From an uncultured Clostridia bacterium (lineage in GTDB: Bacteria; Bacillota; Clostridia; Christensenellales; Aristaeellaceae), in the NCBI GenBank assembly GCA_946414315.1, contig CAMKNZ010000021.1, positions 1 to 33,698 on the forward strand: 33,698 bases of DNA. Direction: 5' to 3'. How positions within the stretch are numbered: the first letter of the stretch is position 1; every line of letters begins with the position of its first letter. Position numbers and translations under genes: made by a program. The notes under the pieces are model-generated. The model searched no databases and had not been told where the DNA came from. It was given only the letters and a program-made list of their open reading frames with translations. Shown one piece after another: positions 20,861-33,696 of the stretch.

Positions 20861-20893
20861 ACTGACCGATCAAAGCAGATCGGTCAGTTTTTT
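20861..20893 (+). terminator. Bidirectional terminator between purC and rrf2
   Basis: ACTGACCGATC (20861-20871) and GATCGGTCAGT (20878-20888) form an 11-bp stem, followed by TTTTTT on plus and TTTTGTTTG on minus. It overlaps the last codons of the convergent rrf2 gene. Confidence 0.88.
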
Positions 20894-21265
20894 CTGATAC
20901 AGGAAATCGTGAACCAGCTGGTCCAGTTCCTGCCACAGCGGCAGCGTCGCGCAGCTGGCGTAACGGGGACATTCCTCCGCGTCCTTCTGCAGGCAGGCGA
21001 CCGGTGCAAGAGTTCCCTCCATCAGTTCCACAATCTCGCCGACGGAGTATTCCTCCGGCTTCCGCAGCAGCACATAGCCGCCGCCCTTGCCGCTGGCGCC
21101 TCTGATGAGCTTGCCTTCCACCAGGTCTTTTACGATGATCTCCAGATACTTCTTGGAGATACCCTGCCGCTCCGCGATATCCTTCAGCGGCATGGGCTGT
21201 CCGTTTTCATTCTTCGCCAGGTCGATCATGACCCGCAGTGCGTAACGTCCTTTTGTGGAGATCAT
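20870..21265 (-). CDS. Rrf2 family regulator (IscR-like)
   Basis: A 131-residue winged-helix regulator. The recognition helix region is IAERQGISKKYLEIIVKDL (about 31-49), and GASGKGGGYVL is the Rrf2 wing. Three cysteines, C91, C99 and C105, lie in the loop where IscR binds a 2Fe-2S cluster (C-x7-C-x5-C here), so Fe-S or cysteine sensing is likely; CymR-type cysteine regulators lack this triad. GGAGG lies 8 nt before the ATG. It is divergent from nifS-nifU, and its own promoter has an operator-like palindrome in the spacer, suggesting autorepression. Related sequences occur at nifS, at the ABC transporter at 32.1 kb and near metY. Confidence 0.92.
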   Translation of the reverse strand: MISTKGRYALRVMIDLAKNENGQPMPLKDIAERQGISKKYLEIIVKDLVEGKLIRGASGKGGGYVLLRKPEEYSVGEIVELMEGTLAPVACLQKDAEECPRYASCATLPLWQELDQLVHDFLYQKKLTDLL

Positions 21266-21340: not shown

Positions 21341-21374
21341 ACCTATTGACATGGTGGGTAAAAGGATTTATACT
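21341..21374 (+). promoter_or_regulatory. nifS promoter and Rrf2-type operator
   Basis: TTGACA (21346-21351), 17-bp spacer, TATACT (21369-21374). The -35 is embedded in ACCTATTGACATGGTGGGT (21341-21359). The same sequence recurs with two changes at 32091-32109. TTTACC/GGTAAA half-sites give it dyad symmetry. Confidence 0.8.
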
Positions 21375-31332: not shown

Positions 31333-31968
31333 TTATTCTTCCGGGTTCAGGATTTCCTGCGCCTGTCCGATGATGTCGTCCGCGGTGGCGCCTTTGGTGA
31401 TCCGCGTGCCTTTCTTCCAGGTCACGGAATCCCCCGCCAGCTTTTTCATATCGGCGTCGCTGCTGCCAAAGGGAGAGGAGTTGGATGTGCAGAACGGAAC
31501 AACCGTTTTTCCGGAAAGATCCACGTTTTCGATGAACGTCAGCATGATCTTCGCCGCTTTTCCGCCCCAGATCGGGTAACCCAGGAGAATTGTATCATAT
31601 TTTCCGAGACTTTCCGGCAGCGCTGCAATCGCCGGCCGGGCTTTCGGGTCTCTCGTCTCCTGCATGGACCGGGAAAAAGCGTTCATGTAATCCATATCAT
31701 CTTCCGAATAAGGCTCTTCCGCTGTGATCTCAAACAGTTCGGCGTTCAGACCCGCCGCAATGGCATAAGCCGCGGCGCGCGTCGTATCGTCCGGGGAGAA
31801 AAAAACAACCAGGATGCCGTTATCCTGCGCTTCCACCTCAGGCAGCTGCGTAATGTTCAGCGTGGCGGAGGTGATTGCGTCTGCTGTTTCCTCCACTGCC
31901 GCTTCCTCCGCAAGAACGCCGCAGCATACCAGCATCAGGCTCAGCAGCACAAGCAGAAACTTTTTCAT
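31333..31968 (-). CDS. Exported flavodoxin-like protein
   Basis: A 211-residue protein with a signal peptide (MKKFLLVLLSLMLVCCGVLA, then EEAAVEE) and a flavodoxin fold. The FMN phosphate loop is FFSPDDTTRAAA near residue 61. LGYPIWGGKAAK and PFCTSNSSPFGSS are the later isoalloxazine-contact loops. It resembles the Flavodoxin_4 type. Two cysteines in the signal region do not form a proper lipobox. An exported flavodoxin suggests electron transfer at the cell surface (inference). The start at 31968 follows AAAGGGG; the longer reading from 32037 crosses the promoter. No redox partner is nearby. Confidence 0.85.
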   Translation of the reverse strand: MKKFLLVLLSLMLVCCGVLAEEAAVEETADAITSATLNITQLPEVEAQDNGILVVFFSPDDTTRAAAYAIAAGLNAELFEITAEEPYSEDDMDYMNAFSRSMQETRDPKARPAIAALPESLGKYDTILLGYPIWGGKAAKIMLTFIENVDLSGKTVVPFCTSNSSPFGSSDADMKKLAGDSVTWKKGTRITKGATADDIIGQAQEILNPEE

Positions 31969-32018
31969 ATCCGGATCCCCTTTCGTTTTCGGTTTTCTGA
32001 TCTTCCTCATACAGCTGA

Positions 32019-32090: not shown

Positions 32091-32124
32091 ACCTATTGAC
32101 ATAGTAGGTTATTGGTGTTAATAT
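32091..32124 (+). promoter_or_regulatory. ABC transporter promoter with Rrf2-type operator
   Basis: TTGACA (32096-32101), 17-bp spacer, TAATAT (32119-32124). The -35 is embedded in ACCTATTGACATAGTAGGT (32091-32109), which differs from the nifS site at two positions only. A further TTTT just upstream is also shared. Confidence 0.8.
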
Positions 32125-32131
32125 GCCTCCA

Positions 32132-32147
32132 GGCTTCTCAGGAAGCC
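32132..32147 (+). promoter_or_regulatory. 5'-terminal hairpin of ABC transporter leader
   Basis: GGCTTC (32132-32137), loop TCAG, GAAGCC (32142-32147). The predicted transcription start is near 32131, so the mRNA begins with this hairpin. Confidence 0.55.
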
Positions 32148-32172
32148 GAACGAGAAGAAAGGAGGCGCGGAC

Positions 32173-32271
32173 ATGTTTACACAGACCCTTCACTCCTGTT
32201 GTCGAATGCTGATCTCCCGGGCATGGAATATGGCTGGGGCGTCGGCATGTATGTGTCTACGCCCTGAATAA
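32173..32271 (+). CDS. Putative Cys-containing leader peptide
   Basis: A 32-codon ORF (ATG 32173, TAA 32269-32271), too short for the usual gene callers. AAAGGAGG lies 7 nt before the ATG, one of the best ribosome binding sites in the window. Four codons are Cys: adjacent TGT codons 9 and 10 (32197-32202), and codons 26 and 28 (32248 and 32254). Its interior (32214-32223) is perfectly complementary to the 5' arm of the terminator that follows the ORF. It lies between the Rrf2-type promoter and the ABC permease genes. I interpret it as a regulatory leader peptide; a functional small protein is possible. Confidence 0.6.
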   Translation: MFTQTLHSCCRMLISRAWNMAGASACMCLRPE

Positions 32272-32311
32272 TCCGCAAAAGGATCACGCGGAAGTCATTA
32301 CTGCCCGGGAG
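32214..32311 (+). promoter_or_regulatory. Candidate antiterminator helix
   Basis: CTCCCGGGCA (32214-32223) is the exact reverse complement of TGCCCGGGAG (32302-32311). The latter contains the 5' arm of the terminator, so the two pairings exclude each other. Between them are two hairpins, GGGCGT/ACGCCC (32237-32242 and 32259-32264) and TCCGC/GCGGA (32272-32276 and 32288-32292), which would bring the strands together. Confidence 0.6.
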
Positions 32312-32336
32312 CTCGTAGACGGCTGCCGGGATTTTT
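32304..32336 (+). terminator. Leader terminator before ABC permease genes
   Basis: CCCGG (32304-32308) and AGC (32310-32312) pair with GCT (32322-32324) and CCGGG (32326-32330), with one G-G mismatch and a 9-nt loop, then ATTTTT (32331-32336). It lies between the leader ORF and the first permease gene, where an intrinsic terminator makes sense only as a regulated one. Confidence 0.7.
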
Positions 32337-32381
32337 CATGAAACCGGCGCCGCCGGATCGGAAGGAAAGGAAGACAGCGCA

Positions 32382-33041
32382 GTGGATTGGGCGTATATCG
32401 AAAGCGTGCTGCCGCTCTATGGGAAAGCCGCCTGGCTGACCCTGCGGACAGGCACAGCGGGCATCCTCCTCGCCACGCTGGTCGGTCTGCTCTGCGCAGC
32501 CGCGCTCCACTGGAAGGTGCCGGTGCTCCGGCAGATTACCGCAGCTTATGTGGAACTGAGCCGGAACACACCTCTGCTGGTGCAGCTGTTCTTCATTTAC
32601 TACGGCCTGCCGAAGATCGGTATCAAGACCGATCCGGAAGCCTGCGGCATCATCGGGCTCGCCTTTCTCGGCGGCGGCTACATGACCGAGGCATTCCGCA
32701 GCGGCGTAGAGGCAGTGGACAGGATTCAGGAAGAAAGCGCCCTGAGCCTCGGTCTCACCCGCTTCCAGGCCTTCCGCCACGTGATCCTCCCTCAGGCCGC
32801 TGCCGTCAGCGCGCCGGCCTTCATGGCAAACGTGATCTTTCTGATGAAAGAGACCAGCGTATTCTCCGCCGTAAGCCTCATGGACCTGATGTTCACTGCC
32901 AAGGACCAGATCGGGCTGTATTACAGGACAACGGAAAGCCTCTTCCTGCTGGTGAGCGCTTACCTGCTGATCCTCCTGCCGCTCTCGCTCCTGGGAACCT
33001 TCTGGGAAAGGAGGCTGCGCCATGCCGGATTTGGGACTTGA
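32382..33041 (+). CDS. Polar amino acid ABC transporter permease
   Basis: A 219-residue inner-membrane permease of the histidine/glutamine/arginine/cystine class. It uses a GTG start (32382); no in-frame ATG lies close upstream, and AAAGGAAG precedes it. Five hydrophobic segments are visible, with LSRNTPLLVQLFFIYYGLP, a family hallmark. The EAA loop that contacts the ATPase is ALSLGLTRFQAFRHVILPQA. It overlaps the second permease by 20 bp, so the two form a heterodimer. The solute is not visible from the permease alone; the Rrf2-type operator and Cys leader point to cysteine or cystine (inference). Confidence 0.9.
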   Translation: MDWAYIESVLPLYGKAAWLTLRTGTAGILLATLVGLLCAAALHWKVPVLRQITAAYVELSRNTPLLVQLFFIYYGLPKIGIKTDPEACGIIGLAFLGGGYMTEAFRSGVEAVDRIQEESALSLGLTRFQAFRHVILPQAAAVSAPAFMANVIFLMKETSVFSAVSLMDLMFTAKDQIGLYYRTTESLFLLVSAYLLILLPLSLLGTFWERRLRHAGFGT

Positions 33042-33696
33042 GGTCCTTTGGAAGGGGAAAAACTTCATCCGGCTGCTGGGCGGCCTGTGGGTCGCGCTCC
33101 GCATCAGCCTGATCGCGGCCGGCATCAGCATCGTGCTCGGCATTCTGCTGGGTGTCGCAGCCAGCCGGAAGCGCTCCGTCGCCTCCGTGATCCTGCGGGT
33201 CTGGCTGGGCGTCATCCACATCATGCCGCAGATGGTTCTGCTGTTCCTGATGTATTTCGGAACGACCCGGGCCTTCGGCTGGAATCTCTCGGGCGAAGTC
33301 GCCGCCGTCATTGTCTTTTCCCTCTGGGGAACGGCGGAGATGGGCGACCTGGTCCGCGGCGCAGTCAGCAGCATCCCCGTTATCCAGCGGGAAAGCGCGG
33401 AAGCGCTGGGACTGAAACCGGCGCAGGTGTATCGATGGATTATCCTGCCCCAGGCAGTCCGGCAGCTGATCCCCCAGTCCATCAACCTGATCACCCGGAT
33501 GATCAAAACCACCAGTCTGGTCACCCTGATCGGCGTAGTGGAGATCCTGAAGGTTGCCCAGCAGATCATCGAGGCAAACCGGAAGGCAAGCCCGAACGCG
33601 GCGTTCGGCGTATACCTTGCCATCTTTATATTGTATTACCTGGCCTGCCGGCCACTGAGCCTGGCAGCGAAGAAACTGGAAAAGCACTGGAGGTGA
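33022..33696 (+). CDS. Polar amino acid ABC transporter permease
   Basis: A 224-residue permease, the partner of the preceding one. It has about five hydrophobic segments, IHIMPQMVLLFLMYFGTTRAF in place of the usual R-x-T-P-x-L-x-Q element, and the EAA loop AEALGLKPAQVYRWIILPQA. AAAGGAGG lies inside the end of the previous gene, 7 nt before the ATG. The stop is 2 bp before the window end. The ATPase and binding-protein genes expected for the system are not seen and probably follow outside the window. Confidence 0.9.
   Translation: MPDLGLEVLWKGKNFIRLLGGLWVALRISLIAAGISIVLGILLGVAASRKRSVASVILRVWLGVIHIMPQMVLLFLMYFGTTRAFGWNLSGEVAAVIVFSLWGTAEMGDLVRGAVSSIPVIQRESAEALGLKPAQVYRWIILPQAVRQLIPQSINLITRMIKTTSLVTLIGVVEILKVAQQIIEANRKASPNAAFGVYLAIFILYYLACRPLSLAAKKLEKHWR

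Follow-up and report, generated by a model that had tools for sequence, protein, structure and literature searches.

The locus studied here, two amino acid ABC permease genes at the end of a 33,698-nucleotide stretch of DNA from an uncultured Clostridia bacterium (hereafter, the window), poses a question: is the permease operon switched by translation of a short, Cys-rich leader ORF? The original prediction had read the leader as an attenuator in which a ribosome stalled at two adjacent Cys codons would free an antiterminator strand, with a metabolite riboswitch as the alternative, and had proposed aligning related leaders for conserved Cys codons and helix covariation and comparing the leader with Rfam. 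The codons, the covariation and the Rfam comparison all support its favored reading. From these comparisons, we put at about 85% the probability that the leader controls a probable cyst(e)ine ABC importer by ribosome-mediated transcription attenuation in response to cysteine. We also describe an Rrf2-like repeat, a wider gene set and a possible methionine input, which that prediction did not include.

Architecture and folding of the leader

The promoter, 5' hairpin, Shine-Dalgarno (SD) sequence, 32-codon ORF with four Cys codons, terminator and permease start that had been described for this region are all in place (Table 1). The 5' hairpin is possibly a pause site. As had been claimed, CTCCCGGGCA (32214-32223) is a perfect 10-bp complement of TGCCCGGGAG (32302-32311); 6 of 2,000 dinucleotide shuffles produced a perfect complement of at least 10 linking ORF and downstream sequence. 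The terminator and the antiterminator helix formed by this pairing (P1) compete for the same 3' strand. The predicted fold of 32214-32336 (-54.8 kcal/mol; z, -3.63; as stable in 0 of 200 shuffles) gives the expected junction of two hairpins closed by P1 and carries the antiterminator pairing beyond 10 bp, with AUGGC (32230-32234) pairing with GUCAU (32294-32298) as P1b. Folding of 32131-32336 is likewise more stable than its shuffles (z, -2.84; 0 of 200), and the terminator stretch 32283-32336 alone is less striking (z, -1.49; 15 of 200). Hairpins resembling P2 were noticed by eye, uncounted, in relatives. The source genome, which is about 60% complete, holds one copy of the element (next match, E 3.9). 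Divergent from the leader, on the minus strand at 31333-31971, lies a gene for a flavodoxin-like protein that seems, by eye, to have a signal sequence.

TABLE 1 Features of the leader and associated genes, in window coordinates
Feature	Position	Strand	Basis or remark
-35 region ACCTATTGACATAGTAGGT with inverted repeat ACCTA-N9-TAGGT	32091-32109	+	Probable operator of an Rrf2 (CymR/IscR-like) regulator; putative binding site
Promoter TTGACA-17-TAATAT	32096-32124	+	Direct reading; TTGACA 32096-32101, 17-nt spacer, TAATAT 32119-32124
5' hairpin GGCTTC (32132-32137)/GAAGCC (32142-32147)	32132-32147	+	Direct reading and folding
SD sequence AAAGGAGG of leader ORF	32158-32165	+	Direct reading
Leader ORF, peptide MFTQTLHSCCRMLISRAWNMAGASACMCLRPE	32173-32271	+	ATG 32173, TAA 32269-32271, 32 codons; Cys at codons 9, 10, 26, 28
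TGT TGT CGA ATG (Cys-Cys-Arg-Met)	32197-32208	+	Proposed stall site; conserved
P1 5' strand (antiterminator helix)	32214-32223	+	Within leader ORF
P1b 5' strand AUGGC	32230-32234	+	
P2 hairpin GGGCGU/ACGCCC	32237-32264	+	Folding
P3 hairpin UCCGC/GCGGA	32272-32292	+	Folding
P1b 3' strand GUCAU	32294-32298	+	Folding
P1 3' strand	32302-32311	+	Common to terminator 5' arm
Intrinsic terminator CCCGG-g-AGC...GCU-g-CCGGG + T5	32304-32336	+	Stem 32304-32330, T5 32332-32336
Polar amino acid ABC permease	32382-33041	+	First controlled gene; start GTG 32382
Second permease subunit	33022-33696	+	
Rrf2 family regulator	20870-21265	-	Candidate for the operator; TIGR00738 122.3 bits, above cut-off; below IscR and CymR cut-offs

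Cys-rich leaders upstream of related permeases

The permease was found in 51 of 150 genomes of the family at E ≤ 1e-30, from which 30 loci were used, and a scan of named genomes contributed at least 80 further loci. Among 110 upstream regions (106 distinct), leaders were filtered as SD-led ORFs of 10 to 60 codons before an intrinsic terminator within 350 nt upstream, chosen by SD strength with Cys ignored. A terminator within this distance was present in 66 of the 106 regions, and only 27 of those also had an SD-led ORF. Every one of the 27 ORFs carries at least two Cys codons, adjacent in 18, and Cys makes up 13.1% of their residues versus 1.5% in 21 window genes. Nine of these leaders are the window and its close relatives, and five (L083, L090, L102, L105, and L117) belong to the same RNA family. 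One (L124) matches the covariance model R1, described below, only at E 0.23, and 12 stand in loci where R1 finds nothing at E ≤ 1 (L040, L042, L044, L046, L048, L054, L058, L060, L100, L135, L136, and L140).

In the other 79 upstream regions, no leader passes the SD-ORF and terminator filter; a looser reading shows one in L035, L047, L061, L073, L108, L112, and L139. Three loci from the same genus as the window (L039, L052, and L053) have no such leader upstream of the permease, which in L039 lies directly behind an OAH sulfhydrylase gene instead. When the leader peptide was used as a query against 200 genomes of the order, 59 gave matches at E ≤ 10, significant only for its own copy (6.4e-19) and G097 (1.1e-9); tblastn against plasmids gave a single match (E 6).

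A second leader type (L042, L044, L046, L048, and L135) carries ...AACC(C)... and a separate terminator and resembles a classical three-part attenuator, with an antiterminator that is indistinct in fold models. A GGCGGCGU/ACGCCGCC hairpin surrounds the Cys codons in L042, L044, and L046. We considered a classical 1:2 hairpin mechanism for this type and do not claim it: a masking stalled ribosome left the terminator folded in three of the four leaders modeled (L042, L044, L046, and L048). Separately, leader and promoter are nearly identical between L139 and L140, one from Lacrimispora xylanisolvens and the other from a bin named, possibly wrongly, Paenibacillaceae.

A patchily distributed RNA family with a covarying helix

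Alignment A3 holds 20 window-type leaders, aligned by MAFFT without fitting to the structure; the covariance model R1 was built from 20 sequences. In sampled genomes, R1 had matches at E ≤ 0.01 in 13 of 391 genomes of the class and 79 of 115 of one family, and at E ≤ 0.001 in 5 of 398 genomes of the phylum and, for two other families, in 9 of 189 and in 1 of 9; these counts include the own or center genome, derive from overlapping samples and were filtered more strictly for sets of more than 40 genomes. The matches are scattered overall, though frequent in one family. To reach other genes, 20 extra regions, picked with a leaning to weaker second matches, were added to 30 loci retained from the R1 matches in that one family and to the named loci. 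The family analyzed comprises 88 elements, 66 of them distinct at <85% identity; 68 of the 88 and 50 of the 66 lie outside the R1 training set.

P1, the helix for which a covariation check had been proposed, does covary. From A3, RNAalifold recovered 7 of 10 P1 pairs unprompted. In this alignment 94% of P1 cells are paired, and over 15 pairs there are 11 double-changed cells versus 4.4 in shuffled alignments, none of 500 of which reached the observed value. Two measures are weak: pairs with double changes number 5 versus 3.1 (reached by 48 of 500 shuffles) and further pair types 13 versus 12.9. A second alignment (A5), fitted to R1 and so leaning towards the model, holds 64 of the 66 distinct sequences (L075 and L126 were left out). 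Here 91.8% of cells are paired, double changes occur in 12 of 15 pairs, and the 56 double-changed cells compare with 12.5 (SD, 3.3) in shuffles, 0 of 500 of which reach that number; sliding the partner strand by 1 to 3 columns lowers pairing to 26 to 48%. The stretch between the P1 strands appears, by eye, poorly conserved.

Reading frame and sensing codons

The ORF start falls outside R1, which makes the reading frame a test independent of the model. In 63 of 66 cases, an SD-led start leads into the element in the Cys frame; for the other two frames the counts are 1 and 4. Conservation of the Cys codons, also proposed as a check, is thus borne out by this frame and by the ORFs selected blind to Cys. 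Within the element, the first Cys codon encodes Cys in 76 of 88 cases, the second in 84 (65 of 68 outside the training set), and one or the other in 87. Codon 2 is TGT in 82 of 88, codon 3 CGA in 79 and codon 4 ATG in 83, counts that are biased upward because the Cys-Arg-Met region belongs to R1, unlike the frame test and the Cys-blind scan, which are free of this bias. In window genes, 21 of the 114 Cys codons are TGT, and 8 of the 363 Arg codons are CGA.

Could P1 instead close a metabolite riboswitch, with the ORF incidental? The antiterminator fold does have that shape, with two hairpins at a junction that P1 closes, and UGUCGAAUG upstream of P1 is near-invariant (a figure inflated by the model). 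We consider this reading very unlikely. It is disfavored because 63 of 66 elements preserve the Cys frame and all 27 of the 27 Cys-blind ORFs have at least two Cys codons, including the 12 whose loci R1 does not match at E ≤ 1. Moreover, the L146 ORF stops just before P1, where a terminating ribosome would mask the helix; the interior between the P1 strands is seemingly poorly conserved, by eye; and no Rfam family reaches its gathering score in the window and 20 other loci. The riboswitch alternative of the original prediction therefore loses ground.

Several deviating leaders bear on whether P1 is conserved as RNA or as peptide. In L194, L196, and L198, P1 persists although its register is shifted relative to the usual SRA (Ser-Arg-Ala), and the ORF ends after CCRMR, just before P1, in L146 and after CCCCRMC in L096. 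Retention of P1 despite the register shift and the early stop in L146 indicates that it is kept as RNA, not as peptide. The same leaders count against a small functional protein with its own terminator, as do N- and C-terminal parts that differ in length and sequence among leaders; nine leader peptides had no NCBIfam match, and five had no Pfam match above cut-off. The good SD, start and stop and the conserved C-C-R-M would suit such a protein, which we nonetheless regard as extremely improbable. Counting against the attenuator reading, the close relatives L062 to L067 have one Cys only before P1, and L153 reads Cys-Met-Phe-Arg-Met.

The CGA AUG behind the Cys codons is near-fixed in the window (32197-32208) and its relatives, and CGA makes up 2% of Arg codons in window genes. 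We found no helix that accounts for it; the TGT/CGA preference would suit either a sensing site built from rare codons or a signal in the RNA. A helix between UGUCGAAUG and the P2 loop, proposed by eye, suits some members and not others, and covariation cannot decide it because an almost invariant strand cannot covary.

Spacing, fold models and a proposed mechanism

P1 begins 11 nt after the second Cys codon in 35 of 66 elements and 8 to 12 nt after it in 56. The footprint of a stalled ribosome reaches about 11 nt past its codon. In fold models with a ribosome stalled at this position, P1 has a probability of >0.5 in 48 of 66 elements; against the attenuator reading, P1 does not exceed 0.5 in 18 of the 66 and the terminator is kept in 15, with L112, L108, L073, L153, and L194 among these. 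With the ribosome at the stop codon, the terminator exceeds 0.5 in 54 of 64. The helix finder used for these models picked a wrong G-U helix in L063. In ribosome-free folds, P1 exceeds 0.5 in 44 of 66, so an untranslated leader is predicted to read through.

We propose that transcription begins from a promoter probably also subject to Rrf2-type repression and that a ribosome immediately enters the leader ORF at its strong SD. With ample Cys-tRNA, this ribosome would clear the Cys-Cys codons and cover the P1 5' strand inside the ORF; with P1 open, the terminator would fold and transcription would end before the permease. Under Cys-tRNA shortage, the ribosome would instead wait at the Cys codons with its leading edge just before P1. 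P1, together with P1b, P2, and P3, could then form and capture the terminator 5' arm, and the operon would be transcribed. A ribosome at the window stop codon stands about 30 nt beyond the P1 5' strand, and simple masking therefore cannot account for termination, which must depend on speed or on the ribosomes that follow. It is likely that P1 is held open after ribosome passage by further ribosomes loading on the strong SD or by the folding speed of the terminator.

An Rrf2-like repeat on the promoter

CCTATTGACATAGTAGG has a single perfect match in the source genome, at 32092-32108. The next-best operator-like copy, CCTATTGACATGGTGGG, has two mismatches and lies at 21342-21358, on a TTGACA before iscS and divergent from the Rrf2 gene (Table 1), an arrangement that suggests autoregulation. 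Across the family, ACCTA-N9-TAGGT with at most 1 mismatch in its 10 arm positions sits on the -35 region in 53 of 66 elements versus 7 of 1,320 shuffled regions, and it is probably the operator of an Rrf2-type repressor.

Such a repressor might be the sole control, with the terminator a fixed damper and the ORF a decoy. The frequency of the repeat on the -35 region and its recurrence before iscS beside the Rrf2 gene agree with this idea, which nevertheless leaves the covarying P1, the Cys frame and the spacing unexplained; in addition, the operator-like box is absent from the 150 nt scanned in L073, L105, and L146. We give repression alone very little credence and favor attenuation combined with a probable repressor.

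Genes behind the elements and the substrate of the importer

Judged by sequence, the family sits mostly before sulfur amino acid genes. The 88 elements precede 34 substrate-binding proteins, 25 Cys/Met PLP enzymes, 18 permeases of the window's family (L064 and L065 placed by hand), 3 LysR-type regulators, 2 cysK-type genes, 1 MetN-like ATPase and 3 iron alcohol dehydrogenases; one gene was unresolved and one element had no gene in reach. No tRNA synthetase cluster occurs among the genes that were assigned. The 34 substrate-binding proteins, one BLAST cluster of which four members were scanned, are described as mainly NlpA/MetQ-type lipoproteins: L147 is of this type, L098 is a family-3 binding protein alone, and in L126 (485-2266) and L075 (794-2467) a family-3 amino acid binding domain is fused to an NlpA/MetQ-type domain. 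Three of the 25 PLP enzymes and one of the three LysR-type regulators (L194) were scanned, and the cysK-type L145 gave a fold fragment only.

Placement of the element before a LysR-type regulator (L194, L196, and L198) would put a transcription factor under cysteine attenuation. In L160, L168, and L204, the first long ORF, 53 to 286 nt off, is an iron-containing alcohol dehydrogenase, and a shorter intervening gene is possible.

The window permease scores above cut-off for HEQRo_perm_3TM only; its best equivalog models (ectoine EhuD, EhuC, and cystine permease) all fall below theirs. The corresponding operon of a relative goes on to encode an ATPase and a binding protein. This binding protein is below the cut-off of every specific NCBIfam model, with the lysine/arginine/ornithine model scoring above the cystine model, and its nearest solved structures are 2yjp and 1xt8. 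We take 1xt8 to be CjaA of Campylobacter jejuni and 2yjp to be also a cysteine binder. CjaA is reported to bind cysteine (PMC4178425). The window operon is a probable cyst(e)ine ABC importer, and the family supports naming a transporter family cyst(e)ine importers. More generally, R1 can serve as a pointer to sulfur amino acid genes, and the family is a candidate cysteine sensor for anaerobes, including gut and rumen bacteria.

Possible methionine co-sensing

Met codons often adjoin the Cys pair in the leaders of binding-protein and PLP-enzyme genes, as in M-M-C-C-R-M. These preceding Met codons lie outside R1. Met stands just before the Cys pair in 19 of 23 binding-protein/MetN leaders and 17 of 22 PLP-enzyme leaders versus 2 of 11 permease leaders, and it makes up 18.6%, 11.9%, and 5.8%, respectively, of the N-terminal part of the leader. 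The binding-protein/MetN group is mostly one family, so ancestry may explain its Met codons. Tentatively, one RNA element might sense both Cys and Met, a shortage of either charged tRNA freeing P1, and with the Rrf2-type operator form a two-layer control of a sulfur amino acid regulon in parts of Clostridia; we think this broader scheme somewhat unlikely.

Comparison with known systems

No Rfam 15 model, S-box included, reached its gathering score in the window or in 20 other loci, in agreement with the original prediction, which had recognized no known riboswitch or T-box. At E ≤ 1, the leader region matches only M23 sRNA, with 18.4 bits against a gathering score of 41.2. The leaders instead combine a translatable, SD-led ORF, clustered Cys codons and a conserved antiterminator that excludes an intrinsic terminator.

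Leader-peptide attenuators of trp, his, leu and ilv operons have end-product codons in the ORF, mutually exclusive antiterminator and terminator, and pathway genes behind them. The window family shares all three features and differs in placing the antiterminator 5' strand inside the ORF, usually 11 nt after the sensing codons; no protector hairpin was seen in window-type leaders. A trp leader that is not translated terminates, whereas the untranslated leader here is predicted to read through (44 of 66 ribosome-free folds), a clean contrast to the trp attenuator. T-boxes sense tRNA through a specifier and need no translated ORF, unlike the mechanism proposed here.

Polycysteine uORFs of mycobacteria were reportedly described by Canestrari in 2020. 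The mycobacterial uORF is leaderless, while the window ORF is SD-led, about 50 nt behind the -10 element, and separated from the gene by a terminator. Translational attenuation has been cited for the mycobacterial uORFs (PMC13236596), and Cys leader peptides are known from Actinobacteria, those of Mycobacterium reportedly lacking conserved terminator hairpins (PMC1262725). Cys-codon runs before cysteine genes are common to these leaders and the window family; as far as those sources describe them, the intrinsic terminator and covarying antiterminator set the window family apart.

Cysteine control in Firmicutes has so far involved T-boxes, CymR, and LysR-type regulators. One study describes cysteine T-box and CymR control, with premature termination in Clostridium, and states gaps in clostridia, where further cysteine mechanisms may exist (PMC2940859). 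The window family shares with these systems the probable signal and the kind of genes; the T-box motif AATTAGAGTGGAACC given there (PMC2940859) is missing from the window at ≤3 mismatches. His leader peptides before hisS/hisZ in bacilli exemplify leader-peptide attenuation in Firmicutes, the same kind of attenuation but for histidine and other genes (PMC2965389). For a cysteine leader attenuator in Clostridia, we found no precedent in the literature searched, whose coverage left out most subscription journals; the cysteine leader attenuators it yielded come only from Actinobacteria and, as the candidate uORFC-8-2, from Rhodobacterales.

A further counterpart is uORFC-8-2 before cysS in Rhodobacterales, for which tandem Cys codons, a U-run terminator and proposed Cys-tRNA attenuation are reported (PMC8632094). 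Tandem Cys codons in a uORF, a terminator and proposed Cys-tRNA sensing are shared with our family. As reported, uORFC-8-2 belongs to Alphaproteobacteria and precedes only cysS, with its Cys codons within the first stem (PMC8632094), whereas the elements described here precede transport and biosynthesis genes and have their Cys codons before and outside P1. Together, these comparisons place the proposed mechanism within a known kind, whereas what looks new is the family itself, together with its range of hosts, its geometry and its combination with an Rrf2-like repeat.
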